From positions 1 to 23,398 of the IMG/VR virus record IMGVR_UViG_3300024985_000011: a stretch of DNA of 23,398 nucleotides, one strand, 5' to 3'. The stretch comes from a virus. The position numbers and the translations under genes are program-made. Shown here one piece after another: positions 7,291-23,398 of this stretch (position 1 is the first letter of the stretch; every line of letters starts with the position of its first letter). The notes under the pieces were generated by a model. That model made no database searches, was not told the DNA's origin, and saw only the letters and a program-made list of their open reading frames with translations.

Positions 7291-7966
7291 TTCAGACAAA
7301 AAAGAATTTGCATCAATCGTTAGTGCAACATTGAAAACATACCGAATTGAACCGGATGCAGATGTATTGCGCTTATGGTGGGGCGTGCTTTCACGTTTCA
7401 GTATTGAGCAGGTGCGAAATGGTTTTAACCGTTTTGTTGGAAGCAAAGAGGCTAAATATTCAATCGTTCCTGCGCACATAGTTGAAGCTATCGAAGCCAA
7501 TGAGCCAGATGGACGTATAGGTGCAGAAGAAGCTTGGGCAATGTACCCACATGATGAAGCATCTAGCGCAGTAATTACCAATGAAATGGCAGAAGCCATG
7601 CAGATAGCACAACTGTTACTTAATGACGGTGACAGAATCGGCGCACGTATGGCGTTCAAAGAGGCTTACCTAAGAATTGTTTCACAAAACAAAGCAAGTG
7701 GACTTACCCCTAAATGGTTTGCTTCTCTAGGACATAGTAAAGAAGGCCGCGAGATAGCACTAAAGGACGCAGTTAAAAATGGAAGATTAACCCAAGATCA
7801 CGCGACCTCATTACTGCCTTCACCTATTCCAAATTCAGTAGTAAATGCAATTCAAGAGGTTAAGTTTTTAACCGCAAACGATACGCAGTTTACTGATGAA
7901 GATAAAGAAAAAGCGCGTAGGAAAATGGCAGGAATAAAAGCCATGTTACAAGGCGGTGCAGCATGA
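7283..7966 (+). CDS. Probable helicase loader (lambda P-like role)
   Basis: I start this gene at the ATG at 7283, which has AAGGTGAG seven bases upstream. The frame is open 42 bases further back inside the initiator gene but without context. The product is 227 residues, close to the 233 of lambda P. The N-terminal third (FASIVSATLKTYRIEPDADV, LRLWWGVLSRFSIEQVRNGF) matches the pattern of replication proteins found after O-like genes in many phages. These bring the host DnaB helicase to the origin. The remainder is helical, with LTPKWFASLG and KEKARRKMAGIKAML at the end. The role is inferred from position, size and the N-terminal pattern, not from a catalytic motif. Confidence 0.65.
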   Translation: MHDSDKKEFASIVSATLKTYRIEPDADVLRLWWGVLSRFSIEQVRNGFNRFVGSKEAKYSIVPAHIVEAIEANEPDGRIGAEEAWAMYPHDEASSAVITNEMAEAMQIAQLLLNDGDRIGARMAFKEAYLRIVSQNKASGLTPKWFASLGHSKEGREIALKDAVKNGRLTQDHATSLLPSPIPNSVVNAIQEVKFLTANDTQFTDEDKEKARRKMAGIKAMLQGGAA

Positions 7967-21286: not shown

Positions 21287-22012
21287 ATGTATTTAGTTAA
21301 AGCGAAAGTAGCTGCCAGAATCACGGATATTAGCGGCAGTATTGTGAACCTTGGCGTAGGTGAAAGTGCTTTAGTGCCAGATAAGGATTACAAGATTTAT
21401 GAAAACAATCCAGCAGCTTGGACTATTGTAGCCGGTGCTAGTGCCATTGAAACCGTATTAGCTGCTGTAAACAATGCTGATGCACCAGGCTCCGGCACAT
21501 TATCAACATTAACTGGTCTTTCAGTATCTGATAAAGGTACTGGATCAGTTCATACAACTACATTAACACTTACTGATGTTGCACTTGCTGTAACTGATGT
21601 TAATGCGTATGCAAGCCAACAACTTTATACCTTCCCAGCCGGACGTATTTTATTGCTAGGTGCAATTGGTTATCTTCAATTTGGTGTAACCAGCGATAGA
21701 ACAACTACAATCAATAACAGCGCATCACTTACATGGGGCTTAGGAAACTCTGCTGCATCTAATAAAGTGCTTTCTGCTGGAATGGTTGACCAATTACCAA
21801 AGGCTACTCGATTACTTGATGGCGTAGCAGATGCTTATGCAGCAGTTTCAAACAATGCACTGGCAGCATCTGCACAGTTTGATGGTACAAGTACCAATAT
21901 TAAATCTTATTTGAATGTAGGATTTGAAACAGACACGGATATTGATGCTGATGGCGCACTTAAAGTATCAGGTACTATTAAATTAGTATGGATCAATATC
22001 GGAGATTATTAG
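21287..22012 (+). CDS. Possible virion protein
   Basis: The 241-residue product starts with MYLVKAKVAARITDISGSIV after a good AGGAG. It has a short barrel-like N-terminal domain (to about residue 60) and a beta-rich body with SVHTTTLTLTDVALAVTDVN, LYTFPAGRILLLGAIGYLQF and TDIDADGALKVSGTIKLVWI. The absence of cysteine, high Thr/Ala/Gly and the place immediately before scaffold and coat suggest a virion component such as a head decoration or fibre protein. I cannot name the family with confidence. Confidence 0.65.
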   Translation: MYLVKAKVAARITDISGSIVNLGVGESALVPDKDYKIYENNPAAWTIVAGASAIETVLAAVNNADAPGSGTLSTLTGLSVSDKGTGSVHTTTLTLTDVALAVTDVNAYASQQLYTFPAGRILLLGAIGYLQFGVTSDRTTTINNSASLTWGLGNSAASNKVLSAGMVDQLPKATRLLDGVADAYAAVSNNALAASAQFDGTSTNIKSYLNVGFETDTDIDADGALKVSGTIKLVWINIGDY

Positions 22013-22064
22013 TTTCCGTTTATTTGCATTGGTATTTTTGTTATGACAATGTAATAACTACACA

Positions 22065-22275
22065 GCAACGTTGTGAAACGTAGCTAATAGGCTAATAACC
22101 TATCCCCTAGCAGGAGGCAGAAATTTGCCAATGTTGGACGGTGAAAAACCTCGCAACGCTCTACGGCGATAAGTAGATGGTGAAAGCCATGCGAGGCAAT
22201 AACCAAGATTTTTTAACAAGCAATCTCTAAACGCGCTGCGGCGATAAGCAGATGGACAAGGAACGTTGAGAAACA
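22065..22275 (+). ncRNA. Structured RNA candidate with repeated hairpins
   Basis: The 291 bases between 22013 and 22303 have no gene. They contain many local stems: ACGTT/AACGT near 22068-22081, ATAGG/CCTAT at 22087-22103, GGCA/TGCC near 22116-22129. A 26-base unit occurs twice (22155-22180 and 22230-22255, 23 of 26 identical). In each, a stem closes the loop GGCGATAA: CTAC/GTAG in the first copy, CTGC/GCAG in the second, so an A-U pair is replaced by G-C. The first copy lies in a three-way junction closed by CCTCGC/GCGAGG (22149-22154, 22191-22196) with a third arm ATGG-TGAAAG-CCAT. The second is closed by TCTC..AACG (22224-22233) with CGTTGAGA (22264-22271). I do not recognise a family. It could be a trans-acting RNA, a cis element for scaffold and coat expression, or an intron remnant. 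Confidence 0.55.
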
Positions 22276-22303
22276 GTGCCGAACCCCATTAACGGAGAAT
22301 TGA

Positions 22304-23314
22304 ATGAGTGGTGCAGAAGTGGTAATGAATGCCGATTATTTTATGGCAAATCCAGATAAGTTTGATGCTTTGACTGATGCGCAGCAAGTAGAGTTGTTAC
22401 AAAATGGCTCAATTACTGCTGCAGGCGATACAGATAGTAGTGCTTCGCCGGACACTACAGCAGATGTGAATGCAGATAATAATGCTGGTGATGGTAATAA
22501 AGATGTTGCAGTAGATGGTAATGCAGTAGATACAAGCGCAGCAGATCCGACAGGTATTTTAAGTAAAGATGGACAGCACGTTATTCCATTTTCACGGTTG
22601 GCAGAAGCGCAAGATGAAGCTGCACGATTAAGAGCATTAACAGCACAGCAAGAGCAAGTGATTGCAGACCTGAAAGCAGCAAAAGAAGCTGATGCAGGTA
22701 CCGGTGATACCAAAGCTCAAAATGATGTGCTGGAAGAGTTAAGAGCAGAGTTCCCAGAACTCGCAGAGAAATTAGCACCGGTAATCAGTTCGCTGGTTGA
22801 TAAAGGTGTAAATGCAGCTGTATCAAAACTCAGTGCCGAGATTCAACCATTAAAAGACACTGCGCAGGAAACTGCAGTGGACAAACATTTTAATACCATA
22901 CGAACCGCGCATAGTGATTTTGATGCCTTAATGCAAGGTGATGCAGTTGAAAAGTGGATTGAAAAACAACCTGCTTTCGTGCAAGACCGATACAAAGAGG
23001 TACTAGATCGCGGTACTGCCAAAGATGTAGTCGAATTGTTAGGTGCCTATAAAGCAGCTAATAATATTACTGCTGATGTGCCAGGTAACAAACAACCTAG
23101 CAGCGAAGATATTAAGACCGCTGCTAAGAATGCAGTTGAAAAGGCGAAGGGTGCAAAAGTTGCCCCAATGAGTTTATCAGATGTGCCGGCTGGCCAAATG
23201 CCTGCCTCAGATGAACTTACGGCAATGGATGAGCTTAGCCCAACTGCATTGATGGCTAAATTTGAAGGCAAAACGCCAGAACAGATTAACGCCATCATCA
23301 GTAAGATTATTTAA
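22304..23314 (+). CDS. Scaffold protein
   Basis: This 336-residue acidic, Ala/Asp-rich and largely helical protein lacks cysteine. It has a disordered acidic part (residues 38-80), DGQHVIPFSRLAEAQDEAAR before a coiled coil (to about 130), and a C-terminal part with LSPTALMAKFEGKTPEQINA. The KDGQHVIPFSRL element is seen in phage scaffold proteins, and length (P22: 303) and position between portal and coat agree. It would bind coat protein to guide procapsid assembly and then leave. GGAG lies six bases before the ATG, directly after the structured non-coding stretch. Confidence 0.85.
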   Translation: MSGAEVVMNADYFMANPDKFDALTDAQQVELLQNGSITAAGDTDSSASPDTTADVNADNNAGDGNKDVAVDGNAVDTSAADPTGILSKDGQHVIPFSRLAEAQDEAARLRALTAQQEQVIADLKAAKEADAGTGDTKAQNDVLEELRAEFPELAEKLAPVISSLVDKGVNAAVSKLSAEIQPLKDTAQETAVDKHFNTIRTAHSDFDALMQGDAVEKWIEKQPAFVQDRYKEVLDRGTAKDVVELLGAYKAANNITADVPGNKQPSSEDIKTAAKNAVEKAKGAKVAPMSLSDVPAGQMPASDELTAMDELSPTALMAKFEGKTPEQINAIISKII

Positions 23315-23327
23315 TTTTTTGTTAATT

Positions 23328-23348
23328 GCCCCATCGTGATGATGCGGC
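23328..23348 (+). other. Hairpin between scaffold and coat genes
   Basis: GCC-c-CATC (23328-23335) pairs with GATG-c-GGC (23341-23348), loop GTGAT, one C-C mismatch. No T run follows, so it is not an intrinsic terminator. It may protect or process the coat message. Confidence 0.35.
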
Positions 23349-23371
23349 TAATCCCTTAGAAGGAGATTGTT

Positions 23372-23398
23372 ATGCCTACACAAATCGCATACGGTTCA
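23372..23398 (+). CDS. Start of the probable major coat protein, cut by the right edge
   Basis: Only nine codons are present (MPTQIAYGS). AAGGAGA lies six bases before the ATG, one of the strongest ribosome-binding sites in the window, as expected of the most abundant virion protein. The call rests on position right after scaffold in a P22-like gene order, not on sequence. Confidence 0.55.

Follow-up and report, generated by a model that had tools for sequence, protein, structure and literature searches.

The stretch at positions 22013-22303 of the window (the whole stretch of DNA that was analysed, a virus record of 23,398 bases) appears to belong to an F116-like podovirus and to form the 5' leader of its late scaffold and coat genes, with hairpins that would act in cis as translational operators. 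Judging from sequence comparison, we give this reading a probability of roughly 60%. The leader contains conserved RNA structure, as seen from covariation, on the plus strand and at a fixed position, with complementarity to Shine-Dalgarno (SD) sequences.

Genomic context and repeats of the leader

The late genes in the window resemble those of the Pseudomonas phage F116, and comprise the terminase, portal (phrog_156), probable scaffold (phrog_479) and coat genes, the last of which only begins inside the window. The PHROG family phrog_479 has no assigned function. Its product is probably a scaffold, in view of the location between portal and coat, and of a mostly helical, partly disordered, low-confidence structure model (pLDDT 64, pTM 0.29), which is too poor for a fold search. 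The coat gene that follows belongs to Phage_capsid_3 in F116 and in the close relative L057.

The leader exactly fills the gap between a stop codon at 22012 and the ATG at 22304. It had been described as gene-free, which agrees with the ends of the flanking open reading frames (ORFs), with the absence of any ORF of at least 60 amino acids with a start codon within it, and with a longest plus strand stop-to-stop frame wholly inside it of about 31 codons. The predicted fold is more stable than those of shuffled sequences (z = -2.81). The protein encoded upstream (21287-22012) matches phrog_11997, of unassigned function. For residues encoded by 21287-22009 there is a single distant phage match, to the spring-water record MW202733 (40% identity over 54% of the length), and no close relative in viral contigs.

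The features below refer to three covariance models, namely R1 for element I, R2 for the upstream domain of leaders of one class of relatives (class G, see below), and R3 for the form of element II found at coat starts. R2 and R3 were both trained without the window.

22013..22303, plus strand: structured leader, flanked by the upstream ORF and the probable scaffold gene
22065..22117, plus strand: element II copy 1, with a GNRA (GUGA) hairpin with an A bulge (22065-22084), an inserted hairpin (22087-22103) and UCCCC...AGGAGG (22103-22117); R2 and R3 matches
22116..22129, plus strand: accessory hairpin GGCA/UGCC, kept in L057 with one pair changed on both sides
22145..22196, plus strand: element I copy 1, model span 22145-22186, hairpin TCTAC-GGCGATAA-GTAGA at 22160-22177; R1 match, two pairs changed on both sides in L057
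22149..22196, plus strand: three-way junction around element I copy 1, closing helix 22149-22154/22191-22196, GAAA arm 22177-22190; predicted fold
22220..22261, plus strand: element I copy 2, hairpin CTGC-GGCGATAA-GCAG at 22236-22251; R1 match, two pairs changed on both sides in L057
22255..22299, plus strand: probable degenerate element II at the scaffold start, a GAGA-capped hairpin followed by CCCCAUUAACGGAG; weak R3 and R2 matches
22304..23314, plus strand: probable scaffold gene, phrog_479, 336 amino acids
23322..23367, plus strand: element II before the coat gene, GCC-C-CAUC-GUGAU-GAUG-C-GGC followed by AAUCCCUUAGAAGGAGAUU; R3 and R2 matches, predicted fold

The preliminary description had reported a repeated 26-base unit. 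The repeat is real and longer than claimed, with 34 nucleotides (22147-22180 and 22222-22255) that are 82% identical. The 28 of 34 matching positions were not reached when the region was shuffled 2000 times with its dinucleotides kept, the best shuffle having 24. The A motif does recur, at 22064 and 22259 (16 nucleotides, 88% identical). As described, the two units share the identical loop on stems that differ (CTAC/GTAG and CTGC/GCAG), and a 6-bp helix, CCTCGC/GCGAGG (22149-22196), encloses the first hairpin and the GAAA-capped arm. The second hairpin is absent from the minimum-energy fold. The proposed order A-B-C-B-C-A can be read as element II, (B), element I, (B), element I, element II; what had been missed is that A is a separate element, which is also present before the coat gene.

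Relatives were sought through the scaffold protein, because DNA searches were unproductive. BLASTN of the leader against phages returned zero matches, and the exact pattern CTNCGGCGATAAGNAGATG occurred in viral contigs at 6 lone sites without leader context, which we judge to be chance; what is conserved in the element is its structure, more than its sequence. Searches with the protein yielded 9 viral loci, 40 phage records including F116, and then 35 bacterial-genome loci and 80 viral loci with alignment, in total about 115 loci in phages and prophages. The carriers belong to a large, poorly annotated phage and prophage group of Pseudomonas, Acinetobacter, Psychrobacter and Comamonadaceae. 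No Rfam 15 family matched the window and 17 homologous loci at the gathering threshold. Homologues thus exist and their stems covary, which is the check that the earlier description had itself named, and there is strong support for its proposal that an undescribed structured RNA precedes the scaffold gene.

Element I is a covarying hairpin before the scaffold gene

In most of the roughly 115 loci, element I lies directly before the scaffold gene as a stem of 4-6 bp with an 8-base loop, NNCGAYAW. The stems differ among relatives (GCCAC/GTGGC, GCTAC/GTAGC, GTCAC/GTGAC, GCCC/GGGT, GGCAC/GTGCC, GCGAC/GTCGT, TGCCAG/CTGGCA, GCAAC/GTTGC and TGCGGC/GCCGCA). As the choice of sites by their stem is circular, sites were also picked by the loop motif CGA(C/G/T)A alone. 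At sites chosen in this way, a stem of at least 4 pairs was present in 85 of 97 loci, whereas at other places in these loci only 93 of 2321 occurrences of the motif had one. The covariation score of 69 such sequences was 0.378, against 0.161 +/- 0.020 for shuffles and at most 0.124 for slid partners. In the curated set of 52 distinct sequences, 96.5% of the cells are paired and the score is 0.435 (0.145 shuffled); all 5 pairs change on both sides, in 26 cells, counts that are not independent events among related sequences, a relatedness that the slid-partner control retains. The single compensatory change noticed at first is thus one of many. G-U pairs outnumber A-C mismatches 18 to 1, which favours a plus strand RNA over a DNA inverted repeat.

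R1 has two significant matches in the window, at 22220-22261 (29.5 bits, for a sequence that was in the training set) and at 22145-22186 (20.1 bits, E 5.9e-4, for a sequence outside it). Among 23 whole phage genomes, 20 were matched, with one clear site each, before the scaffold gene. In about 1,200 bacterial genomes, every match of at least 39 bits precedes a scaffold gene, including one (L132) at a locus that is new with respect to the set fetched earlier. Matches near E 1e-3 in the bacterial genomes are chance-like, and none of them precedes a scaffold gene. In lineages missed by R1, inspection by eye revealed 9-base loops (CF418P1, L046, L056, L058) and, in a Pectobacterium group, several variant hairpins. 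One phage (L146) has a second R1 match at 7439-7473 (18 bits), about 7.4 kb downstream of the first and before an ATG with upstream GGGAA, which could be a second target or chance.

Beneath the stem, a lower helix pairs the purines of the scaffold SD in most relatives, for example as CCC/GGG, CCUU/AAGG, CUCCU/AGGAG, GUCCC/GGGAC or CUGUUUUUUU/AAAAGGACAG. Where stem and lower helix join, there is usually no unpaired 3' base, and a 5' bulge of 5-7 bases that often ends in GCG. The pairing score is 3.78 within phages, and 3.37 +/- 0.11 when partners are swapped between them, with none of 500 swaps as good. In the window, the helix under the second hairpin is weak (UCUA/UGGA), and the true scaffold SD, GGAG at 22294-22297, is found about 45 nucleotides further on, inside the weakly scoring, probably degenerate third copy of element II. 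The predicted pairing of the SD is weak for the scaffold gene of the window itself, and is seen across relatives for scaffold, and for coat including the window.

The hairpins could instead be signals for mRNA stability or processing, such as a stem that protects the mRNA or a site for RNase III or RNase E, and not translational switches. The position in the leader, the compact hairpins and the promoter-like element that half of the relatives have upstream would suit such a role. However, it predicts neither the invariant loop bases CGA-A, nor the pairing of the SD, nor the distance from element I to the start codon, which clusters at 19-24 nucleotides. We therefore regard this explanation as unlikely, though the best of the alternatives.

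In this poorly annotated group, the hairpins indicate where scaffold genes truly start, and they also mark the late transcription unit. In F116, the annotated scaffold start is upstream of hairpin I (L019 3653-3692, or 28782-28821 of the F116 record). Translation probably begins 39 bases after the annotated start, with the ATG of MKKDE.

Element II is shared by scaffold leaders and coat starts

Element II, a GNRA-type hairpin beside UCCC...GGAG, was derived from relatives with longer leaders, which we named class G, the subgroup to which the window belongs. R2 matches the window at 22065-22084 (18.0 bits, E 9e-5) and, unexpectedly, before the coat gene at 23324-23389 (18.3 bits, E 6.8e-5). It also matches the coat starts of L057, L099, L037, L077 and L027. 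The best match of R3 in the window is at 23322-23367 (28.8 bits, E 8.8e-7), followed by 22059-22093 (17.2 bits, E 0.0015). The copy at the scaffold start (22255-22299) is third best for R3 (8.0 bits, E 0.48) and also weak for R2 (8.7 bits, E 0.19). In class G relatives, R3 matches at the coat start and, in most of them, in the scaffold leader as well. Each of the two models thus located element II at the place on which it had not been trained, coat starts for R2 and scaffold leaders for R3. R3 matches of 27-30 bits in 398 bacterial genomes were treated as chance, and hence a score of this size carries meaning only where little sequence is searched, as in the window.

The coat leaders of about 20 phages share GGCANCGCC-GGGAU-GGCGN...GUCCCNNUGAAGGAG. 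All 7 pairs of the hairpin in its leader form are changed on both sides, and two pairs vary in the coat form, one of them in four pair types. The predicted fold at the coat start of the window (z = -2.83) pairs AGGAG at 23361-23365, the SD of the coat gene, which starts with the ATG at 23372. F116-type phages have element I only, and a gap of 12 nucleotides between scaffold and coat, so that element II is an addition of one class. In a prophage of a Methylococcaceae metagenome-assembled genome (L051), about 4 CGATAAG sites precede the scaffold gene and GTCGTGATGAC hairpins precede the next gene, the coat gene, as if both elements had been multiplied.

A protein of the CsrA family, from host or phage, would be an alternative ligand, and the leader would then be a classical CsrA-regulated one. 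In F116 and some relatives, the same cluster of genes includes one for a CsrA-like protein, about 4.4 kb downstream, and in BcepIL02 a CsrA-like gene is found right before the head gene. CsrA/RsmA-bound leaders are also similar in having SD-proximal hairpins, sometimes several. Yet the loop of element I lacks GGA, and GGGA is present in only part of the loops of element II, where GUGA is as frequent. Moreover, a late CsrA-like protein in the F116 position was seen in only 4 of 20 carriers examined, F116 included. On balance, CsrA appears an improbable ligand. CsrA-like genes have been reported in Bcep22-like phages and F116 (PMC9144972, PMC7366521), and in phage JC1 (PMC9144972). The BcepIL02 protein (64 amino acids; L161 10000-10292) is encoded just before the major head gene, with a 98-nucleotide gap in which R1 has no match.

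Variation of the leader outside the core

The nearest relative, L057, has a scaffold protein that is 59% identical, and carries both copies of element I. Its leader agrees with that of the window at about 72% of positions, as read from the alignment, and 8 of 52 consensus pairs have both bases changed with the pairing preserved. At the degenerate element II of the scaffold start, UUGAGAAAC to UCGAGAGAC is kept. In L057, the three-way junction has another closing helix and the alignment is out of register at this point, which makes the junction the less certain part of the structure. On inspection, L057 has also lost the hairpin nearest the 5' end of the predicted leader fold (GCAUUG/CAAUGU). 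More generally, lineages differ in the domain 5' of element I, and the conserved part is only about 45 nucleotides long in most relatives.

A structured leader with SD pairing, and with a three-way junction in the window, might bring to mind a small-molecule riboswitch that controls the late operon. We consider this very improbable, because what is conserved is a single small hairpin, present in one to several copies and solely before capsid genes, in a leader that otherwise varies by lineage. Similarly remote is an independent trans-acting RNA or an intron remnant, which the length and complexity of the leader in the window could have suggested: the element always abuts the scaffold start, its conserved part is short, and Rfam searches of the window at E up to 10 gave only weak snoRNA and U4 chance matches (E above 2) and zero introns or sRNAs. 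Least probable is a signal that acts in the DNA, as an operator or packaging site, or a coding extension at the N terminus that had gone unrecognised, despite the location in the packaging-head cluster and the annotated F116 start, as the arms change together with G-U tolerated on one strand only, and as the hairpin occurs in all three phases relative to the start, with an in-frame stop close upstream in 34 of 60 loci and no conserved reading frame for a hidden peptide. Among the roles listed at the outset, a trans-acting RNA, a packaging RNA and an intron remnant have found no support, and a leader controlling scaffold and coat is the only one that fits, with a hairpin tied to the scaffold SD in dozens of phages and a second element at the coat SD.

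Proposed function and comparison with known systems

Translational control is suggested by conserved elements that are tied to the SD sequences of two capsid genes and to nothing else that was found. A protein would recognise the conserved loops and hold the mRNA with the ribosome site hidden, and synthesis of scaffold and coat would be lowered as a result. Element I would contribute its 8-base loop on a short stem, with the helix beneath predicted to mask the scaffold SD in most relatives. Element II would contribute the GNRA-type hairpin, beside a UCCC/GGAG hairpin predicted to pair with the coat SD, and in class G phages it recurs in the scaffold leader. That the ligand may be a protein is loosely suggested by loop bases that are invariant where no pairing constrains them. 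That it may be an assembly protein is suggested, again loosely, by the presence of the elements before scaffold and coat only. The simplest candidate would be the scaffold or coat protein itself, when assembly lags. Points against the operator reading are that no RNA-binding protein other than the structural proteins is common to all carriers, that the helix under the second hairpin of the window is weak and remote from the scaffold SD, that the minimum-energy fold lacks this hairpin, and that the 5' domain varies by lineage.

More tentatively, the two operator families at the scaffold and coat starts could form a capsid-assembly feedback switch, in which a structural protein represses its own operon when unassembled, so that the scaffold-to-coat ratio follows assembly. 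This goes beyond the operator reading and is distinctly less probable. If the hairpins are operators, F116 and other culturable phages offer a target of about 45 bases on which to test directly how double-stranded DNA phages keep scaffold and coat in balance. A described RNA operator for tailed-phage capsid genes was not found in Rfam or in searchable open papers, nor a paper on the element I and II hairpins among the open-licence literature.

The coat operators of RNA phages of the MS2 and Qbeta type are hairpins at a start site with a conserved loop, through which a structural protein shuts off translation. The hairpins described here are similar in loop conservation and location; binding of a structural protein is a feature of MS2 and Qbeta, and a candidate feature here. 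In contrast, the present phage is a double-stranded DNA tailed phage, with another loop, other genes and two types of element. Ribosomal-protein leaders and iron-responsive elements combine a short upper stem, a conserved loop and a 5' bulge, and repress by blocking ribosome access. The architecture is shared, and a block of ribosome access is what we propose; however, no Rfam model of such families matches.

In phage P22, unassembled scaffold reportedly lowers its own synthesis. The likeness concerns the controlled gene, scaffold beside coat, and the idea of autoregulation by unassembled protein. The P22 gaps differ, with about 13 nucleotides between portal and scaffold and 0 between scaffold and coat, which leaves no room for such a leader. 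A cis element shared with P22 gene 8 was not found, and no shared sequence family is shown. The report on P22 scaffolding-protein autoregulation (Wyckoff and Casjens 1985 J Virol 53:192) appears by title in the references of PMC5744158.

A further sequence element, CCC-N2-5-TA(A/G)GG, is present upstream of element I (L017, L019, L022, L030, L033 and others), in 30 of 60 non-redundant scaffold leaders compared with 0.010 per 200 nucleotides elsewhere. In 23 leaders, a -10-like GACACT or TACATT lies downstream of it, at a distance of 22, 24 or 25 bases. The promoter-like site reads CCCCNTAGGG, and the CCC-N2-5-TA(A/G)GG element is a candidate late promoter or operator of F116-like phages.
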